Of a DNA stretch of 40,453 bases, positions 1,281 through 36,602 are shown piece after piece; position 1 is the first letter of the stretch, and the number at the start of each line of letters is the position of its first letter. Below the pieces are notes generated by a model. That model searched no databases and was not told where the DNA came from. It saw nothing but the letters and a program-made list of their open reading frames with translations. The translations under genes were made by a program, and so were the position numbers. Where the stretch lies: the NCBI GenBank assembly GCA_905233545.1, contig CAJOEV010000015.1, positions 1-40,453 of the forward strand, written 5' to 3'. This DNA is from an uncultured Eubacterium sp. (GTDB lineage Bacteria > Bacillota > Clostridia > Oscillospirales > Acutalibacteraceae).

Positions 1281-1366
1281 ATTAAGAGTTAAGAGTTAAG
1301 AATTAAGAATTTATGGCGGGACACCCGCACCCGAAATTCTTCATTCTTCATTCTTAATTCTTCATT
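1281..1366. repeat. Heptamer repeat locus 1, inverted arms around a hairpin
   Basis: Left arm: four 7-nt units of the ATTAAGA/GTTAAGA type (1281-1308). Right arm: four units of the ATTCTTC/ATTCTTA type (1336-1363), roughly the reverse complement of the left. Between them lies a GC-rich core with the hairpin GCGGG-ACA-CCCGC (1316-1328). The same core with flanking bases recurs at 16903-16922. Confidence 0.85.
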
Positions 1367-1389
1367 AAAAAAAGAAGGGGGAAAACATA

Positions 1390-2475
1390 ATGGGTATGTT
1401 ATTCCAAATTTACGGCGATATGTCTGTCTGGCAGATAGTCGGATGGTGTCTTGTATTCGTCGGACTCATTGTTGCTAATGAAATAGCACGCCGCACTAAA
1501 GCAGGCGGAATTTTCTGCTTTGTTGTTGTTCCGATTGCGCTGACAATCTACTTTATTGTTATCAATATCGGAGCTGAGACCTTTGCAAAAGACAATCCGA
1601 CAATTGTTCAGATGAACGGCTGGTTCCACTATGCTAAGCTCTATGCTGCAACAATCGGATGCGTTGGCTTCATGGTATTAAAATATCACTGGGGCAAACT
1701 CGGCAAGGTTAACTGGTTTAAAGTGTTCCCGTTCGTAATCGTTGCAATCAACATTCTTATTGCTGTTGCTTCCGACTTCGAATCCGCAATCAAAGGTATG
1801 AAAATCGGCGGAATGCAAGGCGGCTGGTGGTATTCATCAGAAGGCGTATGGCTTTTCGGCGGATGGTGGAACATCCTCAACGGTCTTGCCGGTATCATCA
1901 ACATCTTCTGTATGACCGGCTGGTTCGGAATTTATTCATCAAAGAAAAAGCAGCAGGATATGCTCTGGCCCGATATGATCTGGATGTATATTCTTGCATA
2001 TGATGTCTGGAACTTTGAGTATACATACCTCAACCTTCCTCTTCACACATGGTACTGCGGTGTTGCTCTTCTTCTTGCTCCTACTTTTGCAAACGCACTC
2101 TGGAACAAGGGCGGCTGGATTCAGAACCGCGCAAACACACTTGCACTCTGGTGTATGTTTGCTCAGGTATTCCCGAGCTTCCAGAACCATTCAAGATTCA
2201 CAACCCTTCCCACCGTTTACGCTGATGCATCTATGTTTGCAACAGCTGCTAACGGAAAGATGGATCCGAATCTCGTTCTTACCGCTGCAGACGCTAACCC
2301 GAAAGCACAGGGCGTTGTTGCAATTGCTGCAATTGCAGTTAATGTTCTTGTTCTTGCGGTTATTATCAAGCGTTCAATCGAACAGAAAAAGAATCCGTAC
2401 ACAAACGAAATCTTTACAGATACAAAGGATTTCAAACTTGCCATGGAAAGAGCAGCAAAAGAAAACGCAGCATAA
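1390..2475 (+). CDS. Polytopic membrane protein, DUF5692-like
   Basis: 361 residues, largely hydrophobic, with about eight probable membrane-spanning stretches, many Trp residues (for example GGWWYSSEGVWLFGGWW near residue 140) and a charged C-terminal tail. A GGGGG-type SD lies about 8 bases before the ATG. It has the look of the uncharacterised DUF5692 family of Clostridia membrane proteins; this assignment is from memory of the N-terminal pattern and is not certain. No catalytic or transport motif is recognisable. It stands alone: a heptamer repeat locus precedes it and a strong terminator follows, so it is probably a monocistronic unit or read through from hypA. Function unknown. Confidence 0.7.
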   Translation: MGMLFQIYGDMSVWQIVGWCLVFVGLIVANEIARRTKAGGIFCFVVVPIALTIYFIVINIGAETFAKDNPTIVQMNGWFHYAKLYAATIGCVGFMVLKYHWGKLGKVNWFKVFPFVIVAINILIAVASDFESAIKGMKIGGMQGGWWYSSEGVWLFGGWWNILNGLAGIINIFCMTGWFGIYSSKKKQQDMLWPDMIWMYILAYDVWNFEYTYLNLPLHTWYCGVALLLAPTFANALWNKGGWIQNRANTLALWCMFAQVFPSFQNHSRFTTLPTVYADASMFATAANGKMDPNLVLTAADANPKAQGVVAIAAIAVNVLVLAVIIKRSIEQKKNPYTNEIFTDTKDFKLAMERAAKENAA

Positions 2476-2487
2476 TAACAAAAAAAT

Positions 2488-2517
2488 GCCGTTTCGCGAA
2501 AGCGAAGCGGCTTTTTT
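2488..2517 (+). terminator. Rho-independent terminator after the DUF5692-like gene
   Basis: Perfect 10-bp stem GCCGTTTCGC/GCGAAGCGGC with a GAAA tetraloop, followed by six T residues. Confidence 0.92.
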
Positions 2518-2520
2518 GTA

Positions 2521-2543
2521 GGGGAGGCTCTCCTGAGCCTCCC
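2521..2543. repeat. Short GC-rich palindrome, copy 1
   Basis: GGGAGGCTC pairs with GAGCCTCCC in a compact hairpin. The element recurs with one base change at 14069-14091. It sits between the terminator and the end of the convergent methyltransferase gene. Confidence 0.75.
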
Positions 2544-2555
2544 TTATGCTAATTA

Positions 2556-3605
2556 TTAAATACAATAAAAATTGCTCTCCCATGCAGGAATGTATTTTGA
2601 ATGGCGGAAGAAGATTTTGTAATCGGGGTTAAGCTCCCATATTTTCAGCGGCAGGGAAAACAAATCTTCGTTTCTGTGGTACGCGCAGACATATAGCTTC
2701 GGCGTGTATTTTTTTATCGTTTTTTTTGCGCCCGAAAGTGCTTTGAGTTCTGCTCCCTCAATGTCCATTTTAATAAATGTCGGTGCAAGTTCAAGCGAAT
2801 CAATATCAATAACTTCAACGCTCTTTCCCTCGGCGGCAAGCTTTGAATTCCTGCCCGCTTTGCCTGCAAAAATAAGCGTGTCTTTTTTATCCCAGGCTCC
2901 CATATTCAGACAGCTGATATCAAAAAGCTCTTCAGTGTTTCTCAGGAGCTTTTTAAAGTTCTTTTCGTCGGGCTCAAGTGCTGTTATGTAGGCGTATTCA
3001 CCGTTTGTGAAATCTAAAAACTCCCTTATCGTGTCGCCGTCGTATGCACCGAGGTCGATTATGTTTTCGGCACTTCCGAGTTTAAGAATATCGCTGTATA
3101 TTCTGCTTTTATCCGCAAAGGATTTCAGCAGATATTCAATCTTTCCGCTGACCTTGAAGTTCAGAATATCAAGATATGTTTTTTTGCTTTTTTCATCGGC
3201 AAGATTGTTATAAACAAAATCGAAATTGTCCTCGTTTTCGGCTATGAATTCTCTGCTGAAAAGTCCGCCTCCCGCAACGGGAACATCGGGCGCAAAAACA
3301 GTGTGTTCATTGTTGATATCTGCAATTCTGTCAATAACCTCATCAAGCCTTGAAGCAAAGCATAAAACAATATTGAAATCCTCGTATTTCTCGCAGACTT
3401 CGCTGTATTTAAGCACCTTGAAGCCCCTGAAATAATGCCCTCTGACAAACTCATCGGAAGCGAAAATATCACTTACCGTAACGCCGTATTGAGTAAGTGT
3501 GTCCATAATTTTCTCAGCGCCCAGTCCCATACCGTATAAAACAGTCGGCTTGCTGCTGTTTTTTAAATTATCCCAGACATTTTGTTCTTTAATTAATTCA
3601 ACCAT
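2556..3605 (-). CDS. FkbM family SAM-dependent methyltransferase
   Basis: 349 residues from the chosen ATG at 3605. The reading frame extends 28 codons upstream, but that stretch lies in a heptamer repeat, and AAGG is placed properly in front of the internal ATG (MVELIKEQ), so the internal start is preferred. Residues about 20-100 form a Rossmann-like N-terminal region (VLYGMGLGAEKI). The SAM-binding core starts at IIDLGAYDGDTIREF, and the FkbM signature FIKMDIEGAELKALSGA appears near residue 280. The family O-methylates sugars or small molecules. In this two-part form it is often found with glycan or cell-surface genes, but no glycan genes adjoin it here. Substrate unknown. Confidence 0.85.
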   Translation of the reverse strand: MVELIKEQNVWDNLKNSSKPTVLYGMGLGAEKIMDTLTQYGVTVSDIFASDEFVRGHYFRGFKVLKYSEVCEKYEDFNIVLCFASRLDEVIDRIADINNEHTVFAPDVPVAGGGLFSREFIAENEDNFDFVYNNLADEKSKKTYLDILNFKVSGKIEYLLKSFADKSRIYSDILKLGSAENIIDLGAYDGDTIREFLDFTNGEYAYITALEPDEKNFKKLLRNTEELFDISCLNMGAWDKKDTLIFAGKAGRNSKLAAEGKSVEVIDIDSLELAPTFIKMDIEGAELKALSGAKKTIKKYTPKLYVCAYHRNEDLFSLPLKIWELNPDYKIFFRHSKYIPAWESNFYCI

Positions 3606-3620
3606 GTGTATCAACCTTAA

Positions 3621-3648
3621 TTTTGCATTTTGCATTATGCACTTTGCA
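3621..3648. repeat. Heptamer repeat locus 2
   Basis: Four 7-nt units of the form TTTTGCA/TTATGCA/CTTTGCA, directly upstream of the methyltransferase start. The word differs entirely from the other loci; the period is the same. Confidence 0.8.
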
Positions 3649-3650
3649 TT

Positions 3651-3681
3651 GTTTATGCTATGCCTATAGCATAGCATAAAC
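3651..3681. repeat. Perfect 13-bp inverted repeat
   Basis: GTTTATGCTATGC and GCATAGCATAAAC flank a 5-base loop (CTATA). It lies between the divergent methyltransferase and corC genes, next to heptamer locus 2. It could be an operator, a hairpin in the methyltransferase leader, or part of the repeat element. Confidence 0.8.
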
Positions 3682-3689
3682 CTCACCAC

Positions 3690-3718
3690 TTTACAAACCC
3701 TAATAAATATATTATAAT
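3690..3718 (+). promoter_or_regulatory. Sigma-A promoter for corC-phoH-ybeY-era
   Basis: TTTACA and TATAAT with a 17-base spacer, about 37 bases before the corC ATG. Confidence 0.75.
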
Positions 3719-3754
3719 ATATTGAAATATTTTAACTTGGAGGGATTTGCCTTT

Positions 3755-6010: not shown

Positions 6011-6012
6011 CC

Positions 6013-6853: not shown

Positions 6854-6865
6854 TTATCCAATCCG
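6841..6865 (+). terminator. Hairpin at the era stop codon
   Basis: CGGATTGGAT and ATCCAATCCG form a perfect 10-bp stem with a 5-base loop covering the last codons and stop of era. There is no T run after it, so it may be an mRNA 3' stabiliser rather than an intrinsic terminator. Confidence 0.5.
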
Positions 6866-6985
6866 AGTTAAGAGTTAAGAATTAATAGTGAAGAATTTCG
6901 GGTCGCTTCGCTCCGATTATATTTATTATTATCTGAGCGCAGCGAGTAACATCAACTCTTCACTTTTCACTCTTCATTCTTCACT
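6866..6985. repeat. Heptamer repeat locus 3
   Basis: Left array of AGTTAAG-type 7-nt units (about 6867-6894) and right array of CACTCTT/CATTCTT-type units (about 6954-6985). The core between them contains two small palindromic pieces (GGTCGCTTCGCTCC and GAGCGCAGCGAG). It lies between era and the recO unit. Confidence 0.8.
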
Positions 6986-7055
6986 CAAATAATCATTTGC
7001 AAAACTTACCATTAATTCATCACCTATATCCGCGCAAGATAATAAGGGTGATAAA

Positions 7056-7902: not shown

Positions 7903-7904
7903 AT

Positions 7905-10280
7905 ATGAAAATGAACAAAAATCACGAAGCGCTTGAACTTGATAAGATACTGCAGATGCTTGCTGAGGAAACCTCGTGCGAGGATGCAAAAGAACTTGCT
8001 CTTGAAATAACTCCGACAAGTGATTTTATTGCAGTATGCCAGCTTTTAAGTCAGACCGAGGACGCAAGTTCTCTTCTGGCTCGCTTCGGTGCGCCCTCTT
8101 TTTCAGGGCTCAGAAATATAAACAATCCGCTTGCGCGCGCCGACGCAGGAGGCTCACTCGGTCAGGGCGAGCTTTTAAGAATCGGCTACACTCTTCGTTC
8201 AATCAGAACACTTTATGAGTGGAGAAGCCATTGCAGCGGAGTTAATACCTCGCTCGACTTTCTTTTTGAAAGCATAACGGTTAACAAATATCTTGAGGAT
8301 AAAATTTTCTCATGCATAATCAGCGAGGACGAAATTGCCGACAAGGCGAGCGAAGCGCTGTATGAAATAAGAAAGAAAATCAGGGCGAAAAGCGCCTCCG
8401 TGCGCGAAAAGATGGATTCAATAATACATAGTGCCCACTATGCAAAATTTTTGCAGGAGCCGATTGTCACCCAGCGAAACGGACGATATGTTGTTCCCGT
8501 TAAGAGCGAGCACAGGGGCGATGTACCCGGTCTTGTTCACGATACCTCATCAAGCGGAGCAACTGTTTTCATTGAGCCCGTTTCGGTTGTTGAGGCGAAC
8601 AACGATATAAAAATGCTTCAGGGCAGAGAGAGGGAAGAAATTGCCCGAATTCTCTATGAGCTTTCAAGCGAAGCAGGCAACTTTGCCTCCTCAATAAAAA
8701 TGAGCTATGAAGCGGCGGTTTCGCTCAATTTGATTTTTGCAAAGGCACATCTTGCCGATAAAATGAAGGCGCTGAAGCCCATTGTTAATACCGAGGGCGA
8801 AATTAATCTCAAAAAAGCGCGCCATCCGCTGATAGATAAAAAGAAGGTTGTTCCCGTTGATGTTTCGCTCGGCGAGGAGTTCGACACCCTTGTTATAACG
8901 GGACCGAATACGGGCGGTAAAACCGTTTCTATAAAAACAATCGGTCTTTTAACATTAATGACAATGTGCGGACTTTTGATTCCCGCATCGGATAAATCAA
9001 AGATTTCGATTTTCGATAAAATACTTGTTGATATCGGCGATGAGCAGAGCATTGACCAGAGTCTTTCAACCTTCTCATCCCATATGACGAATATCATTGA
9101 TATTATGAATCAGACGGATGATTCAACCCTCGTTCTGATTGATGAGCTCGGCGCAGGAACGGACCCCGTTGAGGGCGCTGCGCTTGCGGTTTCAATAATT
9201 GAAAGGCTGAGGGAAAAGGGCGCAAAGATTGCGGCAACAACCCACTATGCAGAGCTTAAAGCATATGCACTTGATACTGACGGTGTAACAAACGGATGCT
9301 GTGAATTCGATGTTGAAACTCTCAGCCCGACATACAGACTATTAATCGGCGTTCCCGGGCGCTCAAACGCCTTTGCAATTTCTCAGAGACTGGGAATGGA
9401 GCAGAGTGTAATCGACAATGCAAACAGAATTGTGGGCTCGGATAACCGCGATTTTGAGGGCGTTCTTGAAAGGCTTGAAAGGACCCGTCAGGAGCTTGAG
9501 GAAGAAAAGAGAATTGCTCAGGAAGCAACCGAAAGAGCAAAGAAAATCGAAGCAAAGGCTCAGAGCGAAAAGGATAAAATTGATGTTTTAAGAGAACGCG
9601 AGCTCGACAGGGCAAAGCGCGAAGCCGAAAAGCTGGTTAACCAGGCAAAACAGCAGTCCTCGCAGTTTCTTCTTGAACTAGAAAAACTCAAAAGAGAGCA
9701 AAACGATTCAAACGCAACCGAGATTGCAAAGAAAACCCGCCGTGCAATCAAATCCCAGATGGGCGAAATGCAGGATTTGGTAAGTCCGCAGGAGCTTGCA
9801 GAAAACTGGGATTATGATTATAAGCTGCCCCGTATGCCCAAGGAGGGCGACGCGGTTATAATCAGGGGCATTGGCGAAGGCGAGGTTATCGAGGTCAAGG
9901 ACGATAAGGTGCTTGTTAAATCGGGACTTCTTAAAACAAGGGTTAAGCTTTCGGATATTATGCTCAGCGAGAAAAAGAAAAAAGAGATTAAGAAAACAAG
10001 AAGCGTTTACAGAACCTCTTCAAGAGCTGATGATGACGTTAGAAGCGAGCTTGATTTAAGGGGAATGAACACCGAGGAGGCGCTTTCAAGCCTTGGAATA
10101 TTCATTGATAAATGTGTTTTAAACGGCATCGGTGAAATAAGAATTATTCACGGCAAGGGTCTTGGCGTATTAAAAAAAGCGGTTTCCGAGGAACTCAGAA
10201 ACCACCCGAATATTGCCGAATACCGCCTTGGACGTTACGGCGAAGGCGAGGACGGAGTTACAATAGCAAAGCTGAAGTAA
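7905..10280 (+). CDS. mutS2: Endonuclease MutS2
   Basis: 791 residues, typical for MutS2. The N-terminal core/clamp region covers residues 1-300. The ATPase has Walker A GPNTGGKT at 333-340 and LVLIDELGAGTDPVEGAA as Walker B. A long charged coiled-coil region spans about residues 510-610. The C-terminal Smr nuclease domain (about 716-791) has LDLRG and HGKGLGVLK. MutS2 is not a mismatch-repair enzyme; it suppresses homologous recombination and, in Bacillus, acts on collided ribosomes. It starts 2 bases after recO with no strong SD, which suggests translational coupling. Confidence 0.95.
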   Translation: MKMNKNHEALELDKILQMLAEETSCEDAKELALEITPTSDFIAVCQLLSQTEDASSLLARFGAPSFSGLRNINNPLARADAGGSLGQGELLRIGYTLRSIRTLYEWRSHCSGVNTSLDFLFESITVNKYLEDKIFSCIISEDEIADKASEALYEIRKKIRAKSASVREKMDSIIHSAHYAKFLQEPIVTQRNGRYVVPVKSEHRGDVPGLVHDTSSSGATVFIEPVSVVEANNDIKMLQGREREEIARILYELSSEAGNFASSIKMSYEAAVSLNLIFAKAHLADKMKALKPIVNTEGEINLKKARHPLIDKKKVVPVDVSLGEEFDTLVITGPNTGGKTVSIKTIGLLTLMTMCGLLIPASDKSKISIFDKILVDIGDEQSIDQSLSTFSSHMTNIIDIMNQTDDSTLVLIDELGAGTDPVEGAALAVSIIERLREKGAKIAATTHYAELKAYALDTDGVTNGCCEFDVETLSPTYRLLIGVPGRSNAFAISQRLGMEQSVIDNANRIVGSDNRDFEGVLERLERTRQELEEEKRIAQEATERAKKIEAKAQSEKDKIDVLRERELDRAKREAEKLVNQAKQQSSQFLLELEKLKREQNDSNATEIAKKTRRAIKSQMGEMQDLVSPQELAENWDYDYKLPRMPKEGDAVIIRGIGEGEVIEVKDDKVLVKSGLLKTRVKLSDIMLSEKKKKEIKKTRSVYRTSSRADDDVRSELDLRGMNTEEALSSLGIFIDKCVLNGIGEIRIIHGKGLGVLKKAVSEELRNHPNIAEYRLGRYGEGEDGVTIAKLK

Positions 10281-10281
10281 G

Positions 10282-10340
10282 TTTCGAGTTGCGAGCCCCG
10301 AGCTCCGAGTTGTCTGTTACTCGCTTAGCTCGAACAATTA
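10282..10340. repeat. Heptamer repeat locus 4
   Basis: Four units of TTTCGAG/TTGCGAG/CCCCGAG type (10282-10309), then a palindromic tail containing TTACTCGCTTAGCTCG. The tail is shared with loci at 12469 and 16200. Confidence 0.85.
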
Positions 10341-10419: not shown

Positions 10420-10490
10420 GGTTTGGAGTTAATATAATGCCGAGAGCAGCGCCCTTAACTCCTCATTCCTACACCCTAATTCCTAATTAA
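10420..10490. repeat. Heptamer repeat locus 5, in the LRR gene leader
   Basis: Five 7-nt units of TAACTCC/TCATTCC/TAATTCC type (10456-10490). An opposing GGAGTTA near 10425 can pair with TAACTCC. It ends just before the SD of the LRR gene. Confidence 0.75.
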
Positions 10491-12466: not shown

Positions 12467-12468
12467 AA

Positions 12469-12508
12469 GTTGCGAGTTCCGAGTTGTCGGTTACTCGCTT
12501 TGCTCGGA
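12469..12508. repeat. Heptamer repeat locus 6
   Basis: Units GTTGCGA, GTTCCGA, GTTGTCG, then the TTACTCGCTTTGCTCG tail. Closely related to loci 4 and 9. Confidence 0.8.
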
Positions 12509-14036: not shown

Positions 14037-14045
14037 CAGTTATTT

Positions 14046-14091
14046 TAGGTGTTAGGTGTTAGGTTGTAGGGGAGGCTCTCCCGAGCCTCCC
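14046..14091. repeat. Heptamer repeat locus 7 plus palindrome copy 2
   Basis: TAGGTGT twice, TAGGTTG and TAGGGGA in register (14046-14073), running straight into the GGGAGGCTC/GAGCCTCCC hairpin also seen at 2521. Confidence 0.8.
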
Positions 14092-14211
14092 GTTTCTATA
14101 TAGAATAGTTCGTTTCATTTATTCGTTGTTGTAACAGAAGCACTATTTGAGCGGAATGTCGGCGTCCTCGACGTCCCGTTATATAATCAAGTGTGAATGT
14201 GTCACCCTAAA

Positions 14212-14239
14212 ACTCGGAACTCGGCACTCGGAACTCGGG
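14212..14239. repeat. Heptamer repeat locus 8
   Basis: Four perfectly phased 7-nt units, ACTCGG followed by A, C, A and G. Confidence 0.88.
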
Positions 14240-14243
14240 GCTT

Positions 14244-16187: not shown

Positions 16188-16199
16188 TCGCTTCGCTCA

Positions 16200-16258
16200 G
16201 CACCGAGCTCCGAGCCCCGAGTTCCGAGTTTTCGGTTACTCGCTTAGCTCAAACAATT
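16200..16258. repeat. Heptamer repeat locus 9
   Basis: Units GCACCGA, GCTCCGA, GCCCCGA, GTTCCGA, GTTTTCG, then the TTACTCGCTTAGCTC tail seen at loci 4 and 6. Confidence 0.85.
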
Positions 16259-16865: not shown

Positions 16866-16868
16866 CAA

Positions 16869-16922
16869 ATTAAGAGTGAAGAATTAAGAGTGAAGAGTTT
16901 CGGGCGGGACACCCGCACCCGA
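16869..16922. repeat. Heptamer repeat locus 10
   Basis: ATTAAGA and GTGAAGA alternate twice, then GTTTCGG (16869-16903), followed by the hairpin core GCGGG-ACA-CCCGC (16904-16916) shared with locus 1. It fills the khpA-rimM gap. Confidence 0.88.
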
Positions 16923-23684: not shown

Positions 23685-23713
23685 TTGACATTTGTACATT
23701 ACATTTGTATAAT
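23685..23713 (+). promoter_or_regulatory. Consensus sigma-A promoter for the large LRR gene
   Basis: Exact TTGACA and TATAAT with a 17-base spacer, about 34 bases before the ATG. Confidence 0.9.
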
Positions 23714-23746
23714 AATTATGTAAGTATTATATACTGGAGGTATTTT

Positions 23747-26700
23747 ATGAAAAAATCTTTATCAATCATATTATCAGTGCTTATGATAATATCATCAATT
23801 TCATTTCTTCCGTTTGAAGCGTTTGCACTTAATGCAAGCGGAAAATGCGGAGAAAATATAACATATACCTTTAATTCCTCAACCGGTGCATTGGTTATCA
23901 GCGGAACGGGTGATATGTATGACTATGAATGGAGTTCTCCGTTTTATGGCAATAGCTCAATCAAGAGCGTCACTATTAACGGCGGAGTCACAAGCATAGG
24001 TGACGGTATGTTTATGCATTGCTCAAATATTCAGAGCGTCAGCATACCAAATGGTATTACAAGTATAGGCAAATATGCCTTTGATTCATGTTCATCATTG
24101 CAAAAGGCAGTTCTTCCGGGCAGTGTTAAGAGCATTGGCGATGCGGCTTTTGAATGTTGCAGAAAGCTGAGTTCGATAAACATTCCCGACAGCGTAACAA
24201 GTGTAGGATGTCATTTGTTATATAATACGCCTTACGACGATAGTGTTAATCTTAATACTGATCCAATGATTGTTGACGGATGGATGCTTTATGCACCCTA
24301 TGCAAAAGGCAAGTATACCGTTGGCAGCAATGTAAAAGCGATATCCAAAAATGCTTTTTCTTCATGTGATGATATTACGGAAATAGTTGTTCCTTCCACC
24401 GTGAAAATTGCTGATAAAGAAGCATTTTATTCGTGCGAAAATCTTAATAAGATTACGATAGCTGCGCAGAGCATCGGTGATGAGGCACTCTCCGGATGCG
24501 ACGATCTGGAAACTGTTATAATAGCAAACGGCGCTGAAACAATAGGTTATAATGTGCTTTCGTATTGCAGTAATATAAAAAGCGTTTCTATTGCCGACAG
24601 TGTTACGGCAATAGGATACTTTGGCGACTCTTTCTTGGAGACGGATTTTTATAATGACGACAGCAACTGGGAAGATAATTGCTTATATATCGGAAATCAC
24701 CTGATAGCAACAAATTATGAGCTTTCAGGAGAATACGCTGTTAAGAGCGGAACCAAAACAATCGCCGGTAAGGCGTTTTGTGAAAAATATGAAATTACAA
24801 ACATTATTCTTCCGGAAAGTCTGGTATACATAGGTGATGATGCATTTTACGGCTGTTGGCGAATTGAAACAATGGATATTCCGAACAGTGTTAAGACAAT
24901 AGGAAATAGTGCATTTGAATATTGCAGCGACTTAACTGAAGTGTCTCTTCCTTCGGGATTAACAAGCATTGGCGAATATGCATTCCGCGGTTGTAACGGA
25001 CTTAATGATGTAGTTCTTCCGTCGGGCTTAGCAAGCATAGGGAACAATGCATTTGATTCATGCCAGAGCCTTACAACAATTGTTATTCCCAAAAATGTTG
25101 AAAGCATCGGTGAAGGTGCATTTTGCGGATGTTTTTCTGTAACAAGCATTACGGTTGACGAAGAAAACACGGTTTATGACAGCCGAAACAACTGCAATGC
25201 AATAATTGAAACAAACAGTAATACATTAATTCAGGGATGCATTAAAACTGTTATTCCCGACGGTGTTACCGCAATTGGCAATTCTGCATTCAAAGGGTTA
25301 TATGAATTAAAATCAATTATAGTGCCAAACGGTGTAACAAGCATTGGCAACAACACTTTTGAAGATTGCTCCAGCCTGACAACAGTGGTTCTTCCGGAAT
25401 CTCTTGTAAGAATAGGCGAATCTGCATTTGAATATGCTTTTTCATGGGGTGAAACGGCAAGTATTAACTACTGTTCAAGCCAAGAAAACTGGAACAAAAT
25501 AAGTATAGGTGAAGGCAACAGCCACTTAACAAACTCAAATATTGTTTACAATTATGTTCTGTGCGCCACTCACACCGCAGGAGAGCCTAAACACGAAAAT
25601 GAACAAGAGGCAACCTGTAGCGAGGAAGGCTCATATGATGAGGTGGTTTATTGCACAGTATGCGGAGAGGAAATTTCGAGAGTAACAAAAACAACTCCTG
25701 CACTCGGACACATCTACAGTTCAGTTGTAACAGCGCCTACATGTACAAAACAGGGCTACACAACCCATATATGCAGCAGATGTAAGTACACTTATGTTGA
25801 CGCATATGTTGATGCACTTGACCATACACCGGGTGAGACAGTTAAAGAAAATGAAGAGGCTGCAACCTGCAGTGAAGAAGGCTCATATGACGAGGTTGTA
25901 TACTGCACAGTATGCAAAGACGAGCTTTCAAGAACAACAAAAACAACTTCGGCGCTCGGTCATGATTACAGTTCAGTTGTAACACTGCCTACATGTACAA
26001 AACAGGGCTACACAACTCATACATGCAGCAGATGTAAAGACACTTATGTTGATGATTATGTTGATGCACTCGAACATGATTACAAAGCTGTTGTTACAGC
26101 ACCTACATGCACGGAAAAAGGCTGCACGACATATACCTGCAGCAGATGCGGTGACAAATATGTCGATGATTATGTTGAACAGCTCCATCACAGCTACATA
26201 GCGTCGGTAACACCGCCGACATGTACGGCAATGGGTTATACAACCTACACCTGCAGCAGATGTAAGGATACATATGTAAGCGATTATATTGAAGCGGACG
26301 GACATAATTACCTTAGCGTTGTAACAGCACCCACATGCACAGAGCAAGGCTACACAACATTTACCTGCTCGGTATGCGGAGAGTTAAAAATCAGCAACTA
26401 TGTTGACGCAGCAGGACATACTCCTGCTCAGGCTGTAATAGAGAACGCACATGGCGCAGTATGCACCGAGGGCGGAACATATGACGAGGTTGTATACTGT
26501 ACAGTATGCAAAGAAGAGCTTTCAAGAACAACTAAGACTACAGCAGCAACAGGACATAATCCGTCAGAAATTTATATTGAAAATGTAGTACCTGCAACCT
26601 GCACTCAAGGCGGCTCATATCAGGAAGCTATATACTGCTCAGTATGCGGTACGGAGATTTCAAGAGAAACTAAGGAAACCGCGCCAATAGGACACAATCC

Positions 26701-27736
26701 ATCACAAATATATATTGAAAATGAAGTTCCTGCAACCTGCACTCAAGGCGGCTCATATCATGAGGTTGTTTATTGCCTTGGATGCAAAGAAGAACTTACA
26801 AGAGAGAGTAAGTATTCTGCAGCACTCGGACACAAGGGCGGCGAGGCAGTAAGAGAGAATGAAATAGCCGCAACATGCACAGAACAGGGCTCATATGACG
26901 AGGTCGTATATTGTTCGCAGTGTAAGATTGAGCTTTCAAGAGAAAGCAAATCAATTGATAAGCTTGAACATAGTTACAAACCGATTGTAACAGCACCGAC
27001 CTGCGCAGAGCAGGGCTATACAACCTACACCTGCGAGAAATGCGGTGATAAATACATCGAGAATTATGTCGACGCACTCGGACACAAAGAGGTTGTTGAT
27101 GAAGCGGTTGCTCCTACTTGCACAGAGACGGGATTAACCGAAGGAAAGCATTGCTCAATATGTAATGCTGTTCTGGTTGCACAGAAAAATGTTGATGCAC
27201 TCGGTCATAAAGAGGTTATTGATAAGGCAGTCGCTGCAAAGTGCACAACAGCGGGCAAAACCGAAGGAAAGCACTGCTCTGTTTGCAAAACAATTCTTGT
27301 TGCACAAAAGACAGTTAAGGCAAAAGGACATAAGGAAGTTACCGTTAAGGGAACACCTGCAACTTTCAAAGCAGCAGGCAAAACCGATGGAAAGAAATGT
27401 TCTGTATGCGGTAAGATTACCGTTGAACAGAAGAGCATTGCAAAGCTCGGCTCACCTTCACTCAGTGGCGTTACTGCACAGAGTAAGGGCTTCAAGGCAA
27501 CATGGAAATCTGTTAAGAATATTGACGGCTACCAGATTCAGTATTCAACAAGCAGTACCTTCAAGTCGGGTAACAAGACCGTAACTGTTTCAGGTTATAA
27601 ATCAACAAGCAAAACAGTTTCAAAGCTGACTGCAAAGAAAAAGTACTATGTCCGCATAAGAGGATATAAGACAATTAGCGGCAAAAAGCAGTACAGCTCT
27701 TGGAGCGCAAAGAAAACCGTTACAACAAAGAAATAA
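23747..27736 (+). CDS. Large secreted BspA-type LRR protein with 15 Cys/His repeats and FN3-like C-terminus
   Basis: 1329 residues from ATG 23747 (GGAGG 6 bases upstream). The signal peptide (KKSLSIILSVLMIISSISFL...AFA) is nearly identical to that of the 10508 gene. The lead-in module CGENITYTFNSSTGALVISG and LRR_5 repeats run to about residue 600. Residues 609-1235 consist of 15 back-to-back units of 38-46 residues, each starting at His and holding a Cys, then CxxC, in three subtypes. The C-terminal FN3-like domain (about 1236-1329) ends YSSWSAKKTVTTKK; there is no LPxTG anchor. It is a cell-surface or secreted adhesin-like protein by architecture. The repeats could bind zinc or form disulfides. 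The unit order suggests growth by internal duplication. Ligand unknown. Confidence 0.88.
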   Translation: MKKSLSIILSVLMIISSISFLPFEAFALNASGKCGENITYTFNSSTGALVISGTGDMYDYEWSSPFYGNSSIKSVTINGGVTSIGDGMFMHCSNIQSVSIPNGITSIGKYAFDSCSSLQKAVLPGSVKSIGDAAFECCRKLSSINIPDSVTSVGCHLLYNTPYDDSVNLNTDPMIVDGWMLYAPYAKGKYTVGSNVKAISKNAFSSCDDITEIVVPSTVKIADKEAFYSCENLNKITIAAQSIGDEALSGCDDLETVIIANGAETIGYNVLSYCSNIKSVSIADSVTAIGYFGDSFLETDFYNDDSNWEDNCLYIGNHLIATNYELSGEYAVKSGTKTIAGKAFCEKYEITNIILPESLVYIGDDAFYGCWRIETMDIPNSVKTIGNSAFEYCSDLTEVSLPSGLTSIGEYAFRGCNGLNDVVLPSGLASIGNNAFDSCQSLTTIVIPKNVESIGEGAFCGCFSVTSITVDEENTVYDSRNNCNAIIETNSNTLIQGCIKTVIPDGVTAIGNSAFKGLYELKSIIVPNGVTSIGNNTFEDCSSLTTVVLPESLVRIGESAFEYAFSWGETASINYCSSQENWNKISIGEGNSHLTNSNIVYNYVLCATHTAGEPKHENEQEATCSEEGSYDEVVYCTVCGEEISRVTKTTPALGHIYSSVVTAPTCTKQGYTTHICSRCKYTYVDAYVDALDHTPGETVKENEEAATCSEEGSYDEVVYCTVCKDELSRTTKTTSALGHDYSSVVTLPTCTKQGYTTHTCSRCKDTYVDDYVDALEHDYKAVVTAPTCTEKGCTTYTCSRCGDKYVDDYVEQLHHSYIASVTPPTCTAMGYTTYTCSRCKDTYVSDYIEADGHNYLSVVTAPTCTEQGYTTFTCSVCGELKISNYVDAAGHTPAQAVIENAHGAVCTEGGTYDEVVYCTVCKEELSRTTKTTAATGHNPSEIYIENVVPATCTQGGSYQEAIYCSVCGTEISRETKETAPIGHNPSQIYIENEVPATCTQGGSYHEVVYCLGCKEELTRESKYSAALGHKGGEAVRENEIAATCTEQGSYDEVVYCSQCKIELSRESKSIDKLEHSYKPIVTAPTCAEQGYTTYTCEKCGDKYIENYVDALGHKEVVDEAVAPTCTETGLTEGKHCSICNAVLVAQKNVDALGHKEVIDKAVAAKCTTAGKTEGKHCSVCKTILVAQKTVKAKGHKEVTVKGTPATFKAAGKTDGKKCSVCGKITVEQKSIAKLGSPSLSGVTAQSKGFKATWKSVKNIDGYQIQYSTSSTFKSGNKTVTVSGYKSTSKTVSKLTAKKKYYVRIRGYKTISGKKQYSSWSAKKTVTTKK
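25571..27451 (+). repeat. Coding tandem repeat region, 15 Cys/His units of three subtypes
   Basis: Unit order is A-B-A-B-B-B-B-A-A-A-A-B-C-C-C. A units (about 46 residues) carry GSYDEVVYCTVC-like cores, B units (38) carry GYTTYTCSRCGDKYVDDYV-like cores, C units (about 41) carry GKTEGKHCSVC-like cores. Each has Cys, 12-13 residues, then CxxC, and a His at the unit border. The last C unit has Phe in place of the first Cys. DNA identity between neighbouring B units is high, which fits recent duplication. Confidence 0.9.
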
Positions 27737-28525: not shown

Positions 28526-28531
28526 CTAAGC

Positions 28532-28764
28532 AATATTTCAATAGATTTGCTGTGAAGAGGCGTAAGTAGCAAATGTTTTGCTTTTCAGAGAGTGTGTGTT
28601 GGGTGGAAGCACACAGGAAAATATTTGTGAATTTCAACCTTGGAGCTCCATGCGAGAAACTAAGTATGGCGTTTGGTCGCGTTAAGACCGAAGAGTGTCA
28701 GGGAAACCTGAAATTTGAGTGGTACCGCGGAATTATTCGTCTCATCTGTATGAGGCGTTTTTTT
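28532..28764 (+). ncRNA. Phenylalanine T-box riboswitch
   Basis: A leader of about 230 bases with T-box hallmarks: an AGAGAG-like element and TGGGTGG-type loop in stem I, a specifier-like TTC codon at 28633-28635 followed by A, and the T-box motif TGGTACCGCGG at 28720-28730. An intrinsic terminator (28738-28764) ends it before pheS. TTC is a Phe codon, and the TGGT bulge would pair with an A discriminator, as in tRNA-Phe. Uncharged tRNA-Phe would stabilise the antiterminator and allow pheST transcription. Confidence 0.92.
28738..28764 (+). terminator. T-box regulated terminator
   Basis: CGTCTCAT-CTGT-ATGAGGCG with one G-T pair, followed by seven T residues; mutually exclusive with the antiterminator that uses the T-box motif. 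Confidence 0.88.
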
Positions 28765-28795
28765 GTTTTATCAGAATAATTATCGGGAGGAAATT

Positions 28796-29848: not shown

Positions 29849-29867
29849 GAAAGGAGCGTGAAGAATA

Positions 29868-32228: not shown

Positions 32229-32239
32229 CAACAAAAAAC

Positions 32240-32271
32240 GGGCAGCCATCAAAGGCTGCCCTTGTTTTTTT
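32240..32271 (+). terminator. Terminator of pheST
   Basis: GGGCAGCC-ATCAAA-GGCTGCCC followed by TTG and seven T residues; an A run on the other side makes it usable by the convergent gene. Confidence 0.92.
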
Positions 32272-32273
32272 GA

Positions 32274-33041: not shown

Positions 33042-33144
33042 ATTTTCACCTTTTAACCTTTCTTTTATTATTTCAATACTATATTAACATAAAAATATAT
33101 ACAACTCAACAAAAAATTATCGGTTAAATTATGACATTACATTA

Positions 33145-33173
33145 TTGTAAAAAGCAAAGCCCAATGCTATAAT
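33145..33173 (+). promoter_or_regulatory. Promoter for the third LRR gene
   Basis: TTGTAA, 17-base spacer, and TGC-TATAAT (extended -10), about 30 bases before the ATG. Confidence 0.7.
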
Positions 33174-33202
33174 ATTTATATAAACTTTATTGGAGTGATT
33201 AT

Positions 33203-34315
33203 ATGAAAAAAATTATCAGTTTATTTTTATCAATAGTTATGCTTTTGAGCATAACTGCAGAGCTTGATTTTTCTGCGTATGCTCTTTCAAGCAGCGGTTA
33301 TTGCGGTGCGGATGTGTATTATACATTTGATTCATCAACCGGCGAACTCATCATCAGCGGTACAGGACCAATGACAGAATTTCAATATAGTAAGTCGCCG
33401 TTTTACAGCAGATATGGAGATTTCGGTATTGAAACTGTTACCGTTACTTCGGGTGTAACAAGCATTGGCAGTTACTCGTTTTATGATTGCCGCGGAATAA
33501 CGAGTGTTACACTTCCCAAAAGCATAAAAAGCATTGGTGATGATGCATTTTATAATTGTAATGGATTAACAAGTATAGTGTTCCCTAATAATTTGACCAC
33601 TATAGGCAATGATTCGTTTGAATTTTGTAAGAGTTTGTCAAGTGTTAAAATTCCCGATAGCGTTAAAAGCATAGGAAGCAAAGCTTTTTATTCTTGCACA
33701 GGTCTAACAAATATCAAGATTGGTGAAAGTGTAACACATATTGGAAGTTATGCATTTAATATTTGTATTGGTTTAACCAGCGTAACAATTCCTGATAGTG
33801 TTACAAATATTGATGATTGTGCATTTATGTCTTGCACAGGTTTAACCAGTGTAAGAATTGGCAAAAATGTTAAAAGAATAGGCGAATGTGCATTTAATAA
33901 TTGTACAAGCTTAAACGACATTTATTATTCCGGTAGCAAAAGCAGCTGGGATAAAATAAGTATTGGTGCATATAATGATTTTTATAGGGTTGTAATTCAT
34001 TATAACACTGGTAATAAAACTAATTCGTTTACTAAATCAAAGCCAGTATTGAAAGCAAAGACTGCAAAAAAATCTATCAATCTTTCTTGGAAAAAGGTAT
34101 CAGGCGCAAGCGGTTATCAAATTCAGTATTCTCAAAAAAAGAATATGAAGGGCGCTAAGAAAAAGACGGTCAATGGTTCAAAGAAAACAAAAGCTACAAT
34201 AAAAAAACTAAAATCCAAGAAAACATATTATGTAAGAATTCGCGCATATAAAAAGGTTAACGGCAAAACTCAGTACAGCAAATGGTCGTCAAAGAAAACC
34301 GTAAAAACGAAATAA
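33203..34315 (+). CDS. Secreted BspA-type LRR protein with FN3-like C-terminus
   Basis: 370 residues, the smallest of the three LRR paralogues here. Signal peptide (KKIISLFLSIVMLLSITAEL), lead-in module CGADVYYTFDSSTGELIISG, LRR_5 repeats (residues about 70-255, with IGSYSFYDC/IGDDAFYNC cores), a YYSGSKSSWDKISIGAYN segment that closes the LRR, and a very Lys-rich FN3-like domain (about 285-370). It lacks the Cys/His units and Ig-like domain of its paralogues, so it looks like the minimal architecture. More AT-rich codon use than the neighbouring housekeeping genes suggests different ancestry or weaker selection. Adhesion role inferred from family. Confidence 0.85.
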   Translation: MKKIISLFLSIVMLLSITAELDFSAYALSSSGYCGADVYYTFDSSTGELIISGTGPMTEFQYSKSPFYSRYGDFGIETVTVTSGVTSIGSYSFYDCRGITSVTLPKSIKSIGDDAFYNCNGLTSIVFPNNLTTIGNDSFEFCKSLSSVKIPDSVKSIGSKAFYSCTGLTNIKIGESVTHIGSYAFNICIGLTSVTIPDSVTNIDDCAFMSCTGLTSVRIGKNVKRIGECAFNNCTSLNDIYYSGSKSSWDKISIGAYNDFYRVVIHYNTGNKTNSFTKSKPVLKAKTAKKSINLSWKKVSGASGYQIQYSQKKNMKGAKKKTVNGSKKTKATIKKLKSKKTYYVRIRAYKKVNGKTQYSKWSSKKTVKTK

Positions 34316-34318
34316 TTA

Positions 34319-34340
34319 AACGGGCGGTTATCCGCCCGTT
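34319..34340 (+). terminator. Hairpin after the third LRR gene
   Basis: AACGGGCGG-TTAT-CCGCCCGTT, a perfect 9-bp stem; only a short T-poor tail follows, so efficiency is uncertain. Confidence 0.65.
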
Positions 34341-34349
34341 GTTCATAAT

Positions 34350-34669
34350 GTGTATGTACTTATAGAGGATTTGTCATGGGATGATGTAAAAAATTGTTTT
34401 CCAAACGAAGAAAAGAATGCATGGAGTCGTGTATCATTTATTCTTAATATTAGGAAAGTGAGTTTGTATGCAGATTTAGAAATGTATACTACTGCTTTTG
34501 GATGTCCGCCGGGAAAAGAATACATTTATCCGCTGAGGAGTTTCACAGAATAGCAAATGAATATAACTTCCCGGAGGAATTCAAGCTTATGGAAAGCGAA
34601 GAAGATTGGAAAAGCATAAAGAATAGTCAACTGGATAAAGCTATAGATGAATTTATATATGAAAAATAG
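34350..34669 (+). pseudogene. Decayed gene fragment, frameshifted
   Basis: A frame from GTG 34350 reads YVLIEDLSWDDVKNCFPNEE up to CPPGK, then leaves the coding sense. From about 34515 the next frame continues sensibly (RIHLSAEEFHRIANEYNFPE) to a TAG at 34667-34669. Adding one A to the AAAA run near 34515 would join them into about 107 residues. There is no SD or promoter before the GTG, and a terminator hairpin lies just upstream, so the 5' end is probably lost as well. I do not recognise the family. Coding texture on both sides of the break supports a former gene. Confidence 0.55.
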
Positions 34670-34690
34670 ATAAACAGGGGACCTTATATT

Positions 34691-35134
34691 TTAATACAAC
34701 CTGAAAATGAAAATTATCACCCCATAAAGAAATGCGCTTGATATTCCGTAAACAATAACGGGACCTGCTATGCTGAACATCTGTGCAGCTGTTCCGAGAA
34801 TAAAGCCCTCGTGCTGAAATTCAAGGGCGGGGGAGACAACCGCATTCGCAAAGCCCGATATTGGAACAACGCATCCTGCGCCTGCATGTCGGGCAATTCT
34901 GTCATAAACGCCGATACCCGTCAGAATTGCGGTTATAATAATTATAACACAGGGGGTAGCAAGCTTTATATCGTCCTCTTTTAATCCTGCTTTTTGAAAA
35001 ATGAAATTGAGAACTTGCGAAAAAGCGCAGATACCGCCGCCGAAAACAAATGCTTTAATACAGTTTTTAAAAACGGGTGAATTTGGGCTTGCCTTGTCCG
35101 TCATTTTTGAATAATCGCTGTTTGAAATGCTCAT
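34691..35134 (-). CDS. spoVAC: Stage V sporulation protein AC
   Basis: 147 residues with four or so membrane helices. FKNCIKAFVFGGGICAFSQ, GIGVYDRIARHAGAGCVVPI and SGFANAVVSPALEFQHEGFI are the SpoVAC signature. SpoVAC is part of the forespore inner-membrane channel that takes up Ca-dipicolinate and releases it in germination. It is normally followed by spoVAD and spoVAE on the same strand. Here it faces left, spoVAD is missing, and spoVAE lies on the other strand 1 kb away. Its upstream region has a sigma-G-like promoter. Confidence 0.92.
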   Translation of the reverse strand: MSISNSDYSKMTDKASPNSPVFKNCIKAFVFGGGICAFSQVLNFIFQKAGLKEDDIKLATPCVIIIITAILTGIGVYDRIARHAGAGCVVPISGFANAVVSPALEFQHEGFILGTAAQMFSIAGPVIVYGISSAFLYGVIIFIFRLY

Positions 35135-35155
35135 TTTTAATCACTCCTACGCCTA

Positions 35156-35185
35156 TATTATGTGTTTTGCGGCTTTAATTATTCC
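35156..35185 (-). promoter_or_regulatory. Putative forespore (sigma-G/F-type) promoter for spoVAC
   Basis: On the minus strand GGAATA (35185-35180), 17-base spacer, CATAATA (35162-35156), close to the Bacillus sigma-G consensus GnATA and CATnnTA. It lies 22 bases before the ATG, with the SD (TAGGAG) right after the expected start site. Confidence 0.65.
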
Positions 35186-35214
35186 TTGACAATAATGTTT
35201 TGCTTTCTTATAAT
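35186..35214 (+). promoter_or_regulatory. Consensus sigma-A promoter for the ABC ATPase
   Basis: Exact TTGACA and TATAAT with a 17-base spacer. Its -35 directly abuts the -35 of the opposing spoVAC promoter. Confidence 0.88.
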
Positions 35215-35243
35215 TGTTATAGTAATTAAAAGAAGGTGTTTTT

Positions 35244-35990
35244 ATGCATCTTATTGATGTAAGAAATGTTTATAAAATATATAACCCCGGTGAAAACCAG
35301 GTCAATGCGCTCGACGGCGTTTCAATAACGATTGATGAGGGCGAATTTGTTGCAATCATCGGTCAGTCGGGCTCGGGAAAATCAACTCTGATGAATATGC
35401 TCGGTCTCCTCGACACTCCGACAGAGGGCGAGTACTATATCAATGGCAAGCTGGTTGACGATTTGACCGACGACCAGATGAGCACCATCAGAAATGAGCA
35501 GATTGGCTTCATTTTCCAGGGCTTTAACCTTATTCCTTCGCTTTCTGCAGTTGAAAATGTTGAGCTTCCGCTTGTATACAGAGGAATGCACAGGGAAGAG
35601 AGAAGAAAGGTTTCAATCGCCGCGCTCGAAAAGGTTGGTCTTGCCGACAGAATGGACCATCTCCCGAACGAAATGTCGGGCGGTCAGCAGCAGAGAGTTG
35701 CCGTTGCAAGAGCTATTGCCGCAGCGCCCCCCGTTATTCTTGCCGACGAGCCGACGGGTAACCTTGATACCCGCTCAACAAAGGATGTTATGAACATTCT
35801 TCACACCCTTAAGGATGAGGGAAGAACCGTTGTTGTTATCACCCATGATAACGAAATTGCAATGGAAGCAGAGCGAGTTATCCGAATCCGCGACGGCAAG
35901 GTTGTTGAGGACTATATCAACCCGGGGTTTGAAGCAAAATACGGAAGAAAAGCAAAAGAGAATAACGAAAACCCGATTGATTTGGGCTGA
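35244..35990 (+). CDS. ABC transporter ATP-binding protein, MacB/LolD type
   Basis: 248 residues. Walker A GQSGSGKS at 40-47, signature MSGGQQQR at 144-151, Walker [12 protein letters not shown] at 165-175, and the H-loop THDN. The LNMLGxLDxPTxG-like segment ([20 protein letters not shown]) and ADEPTGNLD place it in the MacB/LolD/FtsE-like group that works with FtsX-type permeases on lipoprotein, peptide or cell-wall tasks. No permease gene is next to it. It sits between spoVAC and spoVAE, where spoVAD would be expected. An unusual C-terminal tail (about 25 residues, Lys/Asn-rich) follows the core. It has its own promoter and terminator. Confidence 0.9.
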
Positions 35991-36002
35991 TAAAAGAATA
36001 AT

Positions 36003-36047
36003 TCACCTGAAGATGTAAAAAATATCTTCAGGTGATTTTTGTTTTTT
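36003..36047 (+). terminator. Terminator after the ABC ATPase, overlapping a second hairpin
   Basis: TCACCTGAAGAT and ATCTTCAGGTGA form a perfect 12-bp stem, followed by T5-G-T7. The last three stem bases also start a second perfect inverted repeat (36033-36063). Confidence 0.9.
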
Positions 36048-36063
36048 TGAAAACAAAAATCAC
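36033..36063. repeat. Perfect 14-bp inverted repeat overlapping the terminator
   Basis: GTGATTTTTGTTTT and AAAACAAAAATCAC with a 3-base loop; AT-rich, uses the terminator T tract as one arm. Confidence 0.8.
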
Positions 36064-36117
36064 GGAATTATATTGCCTGCTCAGTTTGCCGCAGTGCGAC
36101 AACGAGCAATGGCTAAA

Positions 36118-36190
36118 TTCCCATAATACGCCTTGTCTGCCCGTTAAAAGCGTATTTTTATTATGAAAACGGGCAGAAAGGCTATGGGAA
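36118..36190 (+). promoter_or_regulatory. Leader hairpin that can mask the spoVAE SD
   Basis: The arm 36118-36145 (TTCCCATA...GCCTTGTCTGCCCGTT) pairs, with small bulges, with 36168-36190 (AACGGGCAGAAAGGCTATGG plus GAA). The right arm contains AAAGG, the SD of spoVAE, and ends 5 bases before its ATG. The loop is AT-rich. Confidence 0.6.
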
Positions 36191-36194
36191 TAAT

Positions 36195-36554
36195 ATGTTA
36201 TTAATGTGTTTAAAAGCGTTTGTTGTCGGTGGGTTAATCTGTGTTATCGGTCAGCTTCTGATTGATATAACAAAGCTCACTCCTGCAAAAATCCTCGTTT
36301 TGTTCGTCTGCCTCGGCGTTCTGCTCGGCGGTATCGGAATATATGATAAGCTCGTTGATTTTGCAGGCGCAGGCGCAACTATTCCGATTATCGGATTCGG
36401 TAACGCTCTTGCAGCAGGCGTTCGCGATGCAATCAAGGAGCAGGGCTTCGTCGGCGTTTTAACAGGACCGCTTTCTGCCTGTGCAGGCGGAGTTACCGTT
36501 GCAATCCTCAGCGGACTTGCAGTTGCGTTCGTTACCAAGCCGAAGGACAAATAG
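36195..36554 (+). CDS. spoVAE: Stage V sporulation protein AE (AEb)
   Basis: 119 residues with three or four membrane helices. CLKAFVVGGLICVIGQLLID and VDFAGAGATIPIIGFGNALA are the SpoVAEb signature. It is part of the SpoVA dipicolinic-acid channel with SpoVAC. The ATG at 36195 is chosen for length and family match; the SD AAAGG lies inside the leader hairpin. The ABC terminator separates it from the ATPase. No clear sigma-G promoter was found, in contrast to spoVAC. Confidence 0.92.
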   Translation: MLLMCLKAFVVGGLICVIGQLLIDITKLTPAKILVLFVCLGVLLGGIGIYDKLVDFAGAGATIPIIGFGNALAAGVRDAIKEQGFVGVLTGPLSACAGGVTVAILSGLAVAFVTKPKDK

Positions 36555-36555
36555 T

Positions 36556-36602
36556 GCTCAGTGGTCAGTGGTGAGTAAAACGTTGCTGTTCACTGCTCAC
36601 TT
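36556..36602. repeat. Heptamer repeat locus 11
   Basis: CAGTGGT twice, then GAGTAAA on the left; TTGCTGT, TCACTGC, TCACTTT on the right, which are partly complementary to the left arm. Lies between spoVAE and the GPH promoter. Confidence 0.75.

Follow-up and report, generated by a model that had tools for sequence, protein, structure and literature searches.

We analysed a stretch of 40,453 nucleotides (nt; hereafter the window), contig C15 of a 2.23-Mb, 97.6% complete draft genome of an uncultured Eubacterium sp., in which tandem arrays of 7-nt units lie at many places, the sequence of the unit (its word) changing from site to site. Most of these arrays are parts of small mobile elements, which are present or absent as whole units. 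We consider it probable (roughly 0.78) that they serve as terminal arms in a family of elements akin to 23S rRNA intervening sequences (IVS), whose S23 protein (PF05635) would form a ring that reads the heptamers; the window copies, which themselves lack an S23 gene, are best read as non-autonomous derivatives that kept arms and hairpins without the gene, or as solo arms. By its way of working this is an IVS-type selfish element with non-autonomous offspring resembling miniature inverted-repeat transposable elements (MITEs). The evidence lies in the anatomy of the elements, their presence or absence across species, a link to S23 in several phyla and a correlation between word and protein. The closest named relatives of the genome in the collection are uncultured Eubacterium, Ruminococcaceae and Clostridia metagenome-assembled genomes (MAGs), several of them ruminant-derived.

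An original prediction, made from the window alone, had listed period-7 arrays at eleven places. Tandem Repeats Finder (TRF) reported period-7 arrays at or a few bases from nine of these, and the two that it missed (10282 and 12469) were picked up by a lower-threshold lag scan at 10292-10309 and 12468-12485. With a score of at least 10, the lag scan found nine lag-7 arrays in the window, accounting for seven of the eleven places; the 16868 array scores at lag 14, and the 10456 array, which is weak (TRF score 31, 65% matches), is not among the lag-scan arrays. Fifty dinucleotide-preserving shuffles of the window gave a mean of 0.14 lag-7 arrays (maximum 2), and lags other than 7 and 14 gave 0-2 arrays each in the real window. 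The statement that each array has three to five units fails at 12469, with only about 2.6 units, and two right arms (1335-1366 and 6954-6985) had been passed over. That all arrays lie between genes is correct provided that the starts of two open reading frames (ORFs), lying over the 16868 and 3620 arrays, are moved downstream: RimM homology starts at residue 36 of the first, so that the 16868 array precedes its homologous part, and the upstream GTG that stretches the 2556-3689 ORF across the 3620 array is probably not its true start.

The excess at 7 also holds for intergenic DNA sampled across the genome, where a period scan had been proposed. The sample, made up of the window and 40 further stretches (840,433 bases, from which a 2,970-base overlap was then removed; crude gene calls as ORFs of at least 90 codons), contained 94 intergenic and 15 coding arrays of period 7, the other periods from 1 to 30 giving 0-7 intergenic arrays each, except for the harmonics 14 (61) and 21 (23). 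The 109 arrays sort into 40 words.

Array length has a mode at 31-33 nt (38 of the 94 arrays; range 17-65), which is also present in the flanks of S23 genes. The common arm, read toward the centre, consists of four units of ARTTNNG followed by ARTT, 32 nt in all. Inward of it there usually come (N)TCGG[G/T] and a short, GC-rich hairpin and, on the far side of an AT-rich centre (TTATAAT), a hairpin and an arm in inverted orientation. Both inverted arms pass a score of at least 10 at 20 of 74 own-sample sites; at the remaining sites the second arm is degenerate, differently worded or missing. Hairpins and arms are freely mixed among elements. A named MAG contig (L209) has near ffh, besides an AATTACG element, an AACGCAC-type array of 102 nt, far above the usual arm length.

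Heptamer repeats are reported to be over-represented in bacterial genomes and have been ascribed to polymerase slippage (PMC4679880, PMC4692102; here as below, PMC papers are cited for the parts of them covered), in which case DNA polymerase would slip preferentially by 7 nt and each site would acquire its word anew. The long arrays, e.g., one of about 15 units in Pseudanabaena, and the reported variation of heptamer copy number among Coxiella strains agree with slippage, and because of them slippage may adjust arms secondarily. As the origin of the arrays, which the original prediction had also considered, it is very unlikely: the copy number is not open-ended, as the length mode shows, and the arms often form inverted pairs around a core, with inverted partners at 20 of 74 sites. 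We therefore set it aside.

Comparison with related genomes, which had likewise been suggested, revealed sites that mostly differ between sisters rather than simple conservation. The ffh-rpsP gap, printed for 16 of 30 loci (the other 14 being on the opposite strand or without a readable rpsP), holds an element in the window and measures 36-75 nt in 10 of the 15 same-genus loci printed; in genome G006 this place is taken by an element of different words (AGCTACA/AGCTTGA), and the insert is absent from G038. The latter, a sister with about 80-92% identity in aligned pieces, has the 1281 site in common with the window, with the same word family, and those at 3621, 6865, 14046-14238, 16200 and 16869 are absent or different, the 3620 site being occupied by a different element with the word ACTCGGA. 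A flank search with 106 paired elements yielded many empty sites in relatives, twelve of which were printed, including two for S23-bearing copies (L358 of G002 and L359 of the own genome). Insertions often lie just where one gene has ended with its stop codon and the following one has yet to start. Such presence or absence of whole elements, some with an S23 gene between their arms, also speaks against slippage, and the supposition of one process behind a constant period and a varying word was borne out, the process being a mobile hairpin element.

Short palindromic intergenic elements mobilised in trans are familiar as REPINs (repetitive extragenic palindromic, or REP, doublets forming hairpins) and bacterial interspersed mosaic elements (BIMEs); they are moved by the REP-associated tyrosine transposase (RAYT, or TnpA-REP), and a GTAG tetranucleotide at the hairpin foot is one of their features. 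If the elements were of this type, the heptamers would be decoration around REP hairpins. RAYT genes do exist in the own genome (seven loci; NF047646, best E 8.4e-18, below the curated cut-off), GTAG hairpins occur and once adjoin the 14045 array, and one own RAYT copy (L176) has a TTAGGTG-type array nearby. However, the arrays do not lie at RAYT loci: among 30 loci none had arrays in both 150-nt flanks and one had an array in one flank (none and six, respectively, with 300-nt flanks), and RAYT is present in 10 of 14 genomes with arrays vs. 14 of 27 without (41 genomes; Fisher p 0.32), G033 having 15 forward and 5 reverse pattern matches but no RAYT match. The elements also differ from REPINs and BIMEs in their protein, in their heptamer arms and in the missing GTAG head, since the core after the listed arms starts mostly with TCGG(G/T) and the GTAG hairpins are separate elements. 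A RAYT-driven origin, which the original prediction had named as a candidate, is thus most improbable, and was set aside because RAYT genes are not flanked by arrays. GTAG-hairpin REP-like elements were also seen in frame inside two small RAYT genes (L097, L098) of the same genome.

A different protein is found between the arms. In a named Ruminococcus contig (L272), an AGTGATC arm pair encloses a small ORF, which we took to be a 23S rRNA intervening-sequence protein, and PF05635 was therefore searched across the 41 genomes. At E <= 0.001 it matched in 22 of them, with seven copies in the own genome, and many S23 copies proved to be enclosed by inverted heptamer arms. An autonomous copy of about 450-500 bp comprises an inverted arm, often a small hairpin, one S23 gene for a four-helix-bundle protein of about 120 amino acids, often a second small hairpin, and the inverted arm. 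We assembled 95 S23 loci: 48 from the genus (of 49 matches, a fragment at G002:C19:25732 being left out), 30 from the order (only the matches with loci taken in), 16 from plasmids (of 31 records) and L272. Period-7 arrays were present within 150 nt on both flanks at 48 loci, on one flank at 10 and on neither at 37; by set, both flanks carried them at 19 of 48 genus, 15 of 30 order and 13 of 16 plasmid loci, and at L272. The same both-flank test found no locus with arrays of period 4-6 or 9-12 and three with period 8, shuffled S23 flanks gave 0 loci in 100 runs, and among 30 ffh control loci none had arrays in both flanks and two had one in one flank. The upstream word and the reverse complement of the downstream word of the same locus differ by a mean distance of 0.96, vs. 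3.01 after shuffling (minimum 2.58). S23 (E <= 0.001) and arrays also co-occur across genomes: within the genus S23 is present in 13 of 14 genomes with arrays vs. 9 of 27 without (Fisher 3e-4), and within the order in 31 of 38 vs. 16 of 38 (Fisher 8e-4), the array-free order-level set being 38 genomes hand-picked along the list. No relative was found in viral contigs scanned with an S23 protein.

The words themselves change in concert. In 254 of 277 arms, chosen on their A, R, T, K and G positions only, the four units share their variable middle dinucleotide in 67.5% of pairwise comparisons vs. 13.7% when shuffled, and species have their favourites (at the places listed, AATTACG in G002, AATTGAG in G006, and AATTAAG/AATTATG and AATTCGG in G036). 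This concerted change across all units points to a common reader. In the core-facing arm windows (193 of 309), unit 3 is marked by a G at position 2 in 11 of 30 GA arms and 11 of 20 AC arms, vs. 0-4 in other units; the mark is clear in the word classes GA, AC and CC and weak in AG, whereas AA and CG do not show it, and where it exists it is a further point against slippage. Distances between S23 proteins correlate with distances between their words (Mantel r 0.33, 0 of 5000 permutations), also after removal of seven likely shared-site or near-copy rows (r 0.34, 0 of 5000), and in a tree of 94 of the 95 S23 proteins flanked and unflanked loci each cluster.

Several window words recur around S23 genes of the own genome, whose elements carry TTAGGTG (L359), AGTTCCG/ACTCGGA (L381), AATTAGG (L391), AATGCAA/TTTTGCA (L389) and AATTGAG (L388). 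Within one change, L359 corresponds to the window array at 14045, L381 to those at 14211, 16199 and 12468, L391 to 10457 and L389 to 3620. The element at 16199 has both its arm word (1 change in the consensus) and its hairpin in common with L381, much as MITEs share ends with a gene-bearing element; unlike MITEs, there is no transposase of a known class among what was found. S23 carriers of the AATTAAG word were seen in relatives only (L365, L383, L384). Overall, an own S23 word with at most one change fits 77% of the 109 own arrays, vs. 22% for letter-shuffled words.

A variant of the element bears on what is read. Among the 37 S23 loci without plain arrays, 13 (and L374 in addition) have three or four near-identical units, e.g., ACTTCAC or ATATCAC, that are parted by short hairpins of unrelated sequence; the unit is 7 nt long in 13 of these 14 loci, which include L371, L372, L374, L377, L399, L400, L437, L438 and L440. 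The separated units lie upstream of the S23 genes, which are mostly of one sister clade. Shuffled flanks produced no such units in five runs. With a word-free measure at 47 loci, the distance from one hairpin to the next is most often 7 nt (11 cases vs. 0.3 expected), distances of 5, 6 and 9 being found in 4-5 cases each. Slips of 7 nt cannot produce units with hairpins between them. With the hairpins folded out, the units would align as a tandem heptamer array, which argues that the form that is read would be single-stranded, and that the 7 would belong to the reader and not to polymerase slippage.

As to the reader, S23 has had a solved structure since 2006, is related to Avd, a factor of diversity-generating retroelements (DGRs), and is described as being without known function (PMC4990558, PMC10053308); the Xanthomonas S23 (2GSC) is described as a homopentamer toroid (PMC4990558). 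The only solved relatives found were 2GSC (E 2.5e-23) and 2RLD (E 1e-8), with five chains each. One S23 protein modelled with AlphaFold from single-sequence input has four helices, at a mean predicted local distance difference test score of 49; the model was not used for fold searches. We suggest that an S23 homopentamer ring may bind single-stranded, hairpin-folded DNA or RNA, each subunit taking one heptamer. Five ARTT motifs at 7-nt spacing (four units plus 4 nt, i.e., 32 nt) would fit five identical subunits, which would demand identical units; a change in protein specificity would therefore change the word in all units together, with the period, set by ring geometry, staying at 7. The ring might then draw the inverted arms to each other, in preparation for excision or copying and for insertion between genes, cutting being perhaps left to host or other enzymes.

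S23 could alternatively be an RNA-binding guard or regulator of the element RNA that, e.g., shields a double-stranded stem from RNase III, the movement being due to host recombination. Two window elements fold as RNA far better than shuffles (z -8.7 for 1280-1367 and -7.3 for 6864-6987), many elements follow the stop codon of one gene and precede the start of another, and RNase III excises the IVS from rRNA (PMC4990558), all of which would suit such a role. A guard alone, however, does not explain how S23-bearing copies spread to new sites, and we regard it as possible but doubtful; it is poorly separated from a ring that reads heptamers because the heptamer-reading step is common to both. The resemblance of PF05635 proteins to Avd (PMC10053308) might also suggest that the repeats are templated by a reverse transcriptase, telomerase-like or DGR-like, with S23 as an Avd-like partner. 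We consider this, and with it the copying enzyme envisaged by the original prediction, hardly credible: RVT_1 has no match at E <= 0.001 in the 97.6% complete own genome, and both the length mode and the unit-specific marks are unlike templating by a short RNA. The idea of a telomerase-like defence-associated reverse transcriptase was dropped on account of the missing RVT_1 match.

Several results weigh against arms read by an S23 ring. We know of no nuclease activity of S23. Seven of the 38 order-level genomes with arrays have no S23 match, and G011, with a single array match, has none either. Among the S23 loci, 37 of 95 have no array at the threshold and 10 have one on one flank only; 13 of the 37 are of the hairpin-separated form and the other 24 are unaccounted for. 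Arms in S23 flanks reach 128 nt, and the S23 gene of a Gemmatirosa plasmid (L418) has arms of period 8 (AGGGCAGG), not 7; because some arms are so much longer, and because of the Gemmatirosa period, five units are not universal. Co-inheritance could account for part of the correlation of word and protein, as gene and arms share one element. For the arms at 1282 and 6865 (AATTAAG/AGTTAAG) and the AGTGGTC array, no S23 carrier within 1 change was found in the own assembly. Arrays of G002 match its own S23 words at 22%, vs. 76% with those of G033, and the own S23 word list, which is the longest, fits 60-90% of the arrays in four relatives too; because of this a match of arrays to S23 words genome by genome is not claimed, and it was set aside as failing in G002. 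By-eye inspection of 12 filled and empty pairs gave no callable target-site duplication, a hallmark of MITEs that was not seen here because the empty sites are too diverged.

The best comparison among known systems is the 23S rRNA IVS of Coxiella, Leptospira and Azospirillum, which is alike in its S23 family, similar size and stem-forming inverted terminal repeats. The Coxiella IVS of 428 nt is reported to have three tandem heptamers and a degenerate fourth ahead of the S23 ORF and a 28-bp terminal stem, and is excised from rRNA by RNase III (PMC4990558). The elements described here have an S23 gene inside in their autonomous form (with arrays on both flanks at 48 of 95 loci) and a terminal stem; in contrast to rRNA IVS, they are spread over a genome in dozens of copies, mostly gene-less and with differing words. 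Because the window copies lie between protein genes and not in 23S rRNA, we class the elements as the same kind as IVS elsewhere rather than as rRNA IVS. One fetched locus was confirmed in rRNA: in Azospirillum (L421), an S23 copy with inverted heptamer arms sits inside 23S rRNA, with an Rfam large-subunit match over the whole stretch. Heptamers are reported for the IVS of Coxiella (PMC4990558) and were seen here in that of Azospirillum.

Other heptamers in the literature are alike in part. The GGGAATC and GGGGA(C/T)T repeats of Xanthomonas and Nostoc are intergenic and most commonly have four units, and two Xanthomonas genomes contain 70 and 75 convergent inverted pairs of them; the paper interprets these heptamers as G-quadruplex repeats, and S23 is not mentioned in the parts of it covered (PMC4692102). 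The TAACTGA repeats of Beggiatoaceae, Cyanobacteria and Bacteroidetes are likewise intergenic tandem heptamers, near start codons, but are direct repeats of one word with one inverted repeat noted; neither 'S23' nor 'four helix' occurs in the main text (PMC4679880). Among the top-ranked matches in the open-access PMC literature, no paper ties S23 to genome-wide heptamer arrays.

S23 elements with heptamer arms extend to plasmids, where 31 records, mostly cyanobacterial, match S23; among 16 fetched loci, 13 are bracketed by period-7 arrays, whose words include AGTAGGG, AGTCAGG and AGGTGAC. S23 genes have been listed near clustered regularly interspaced short palindromic repeat (CRISPR) systems (PMC10910872). 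In L406, L413 and L414 (Picosynechococcus), the S23 gene lies between cas6 and cas4 in two and between cas10 and cmr3 in one, and the two between cas6 and cas4, on cyanobacterial plasmids, have heptamer arms. Because they have heptamer arms, the S23 genes of L406 (Anabaena sp. 90 pANA02) and L413 (Pseudanabaena pPg_01) look like insertions and not like CRISPR partners; if S23 rings read heptamers, some CRISPR-adjacent S23 genes could be hitch-hiking insertions.

About evenly balanced, in our view, is the wider proposal that S23 is a hitherto unrecognised class of mobile-element proteins whose five-fold rings read tandem heptamers in single-stranded, hairpin-folded nucleic acid, each subunit reading one heptamer, that most intergenic heptamers of Xanthomonas, cyanobacteria, Beggiatoaceae and Clostridia mark the termini of such elements, and that each lineage has its own word through co-evolution of ring and word. 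Two old puzzles, the over-representation of heptamers and the functionless S23 proteins, would meet here; if S23 rings do read heptamers, the 7-nt period would have a structural cause, and a recognition code could be read from sequence by comparing words with proteins.

In the window (arrays reported by TRF unless another source is named), the first element directly follows a hypA-like ORF. Its left arm, of the form (ARTTNNG)4ARTT with the word AATTAAG/AGTTAAG, occupies 1280-1311 on the plus strand (TRF and lag scan), followed by the GC-rich hairpin core GGCGGGACACCCGCACCC (1312-1334) and by the right arm on the minus strand (1335-1366; AATGAAG/AATTAAG as reverse complement). A solo array on the minus strand at 3620-3650 has the word AATGCAA (TTTTGCA on the plus strand) of the own S23 element L389. 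The second element with both arms consists of a left arm on the plus strand (6866-6897; AGTTAAG/AATTAAG/AGTGAAG), a core at 6898-6953 with the hairpin TCGGGTCGCTTCGCTCCGATTATA and the inverted hairpin CTGAGCGCAGCGAGTAACA, and a right arm on the minus strand (6954-6985; AGTGAAG/AATGAAG). After a mutS2-like gene, a left arm on the plus strand at 10280-10311 (AGTTTCG AGTTGCG AGCCCCG AGCTCCG AGTT, then the core GTCTGTTACTCGCTTAGCTCGAACAATTATA) was recognised by eye and in part (10292-10309) by the lag scan; a right-facing arm with another word (AATTAGG/AATGAGG) at 10457-10488 on the minus strand is perhaps composite with it.

Further along, a short arm on the plus strand at 12468-12485 (AGTTGCG AGTTCCG AGTT, with the core GTCGGTTACTCGCTTTGCTCGGACAA) comes from the lower-threshold lag scan. 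The TTAGGTG array at 14045-14064 (plus strand), with the word of the own S23 element L359, adjoins the GTAG hairpin at 14066-14091, and an arm at 14211-14242 on the minus strand has the word AGTTCCG (ACTCGGA on the plus strand) of L381. The element in the ffh-rpsP gap has a left arm on the plus strand at 16199-16230 (AGCACCG AGCTCCG AGCCCCG AGTTCCG AGTT) and the core hairpin TTCGGTTACTCGCTTAGCTCAAACAATT at 16231-16258; that at 16868-16899, also a left arm on the plus strand (AATTAAG AGTGAAG AATTAAG AGTGAAG AGTT), is followed by the core hairpin TCGGGCGGGACACCCGCACCCGA at 16900-16922 (from the printed site). The last array, AGTGGTC at 36553-36576 on the plus strand, has the same word as that around the S23 gene L380 in the sister species G002; an S23 gene flanked by this word was not found in the own genome. 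Apart from the arrays, the window has a 1343-amino-acid ORF (23705-27736) that is internally repetitive, with long tandem repeats (114-252 nt), and a T-box leader at 28543-28747 (Rfam RF00230, 132.9 bits).

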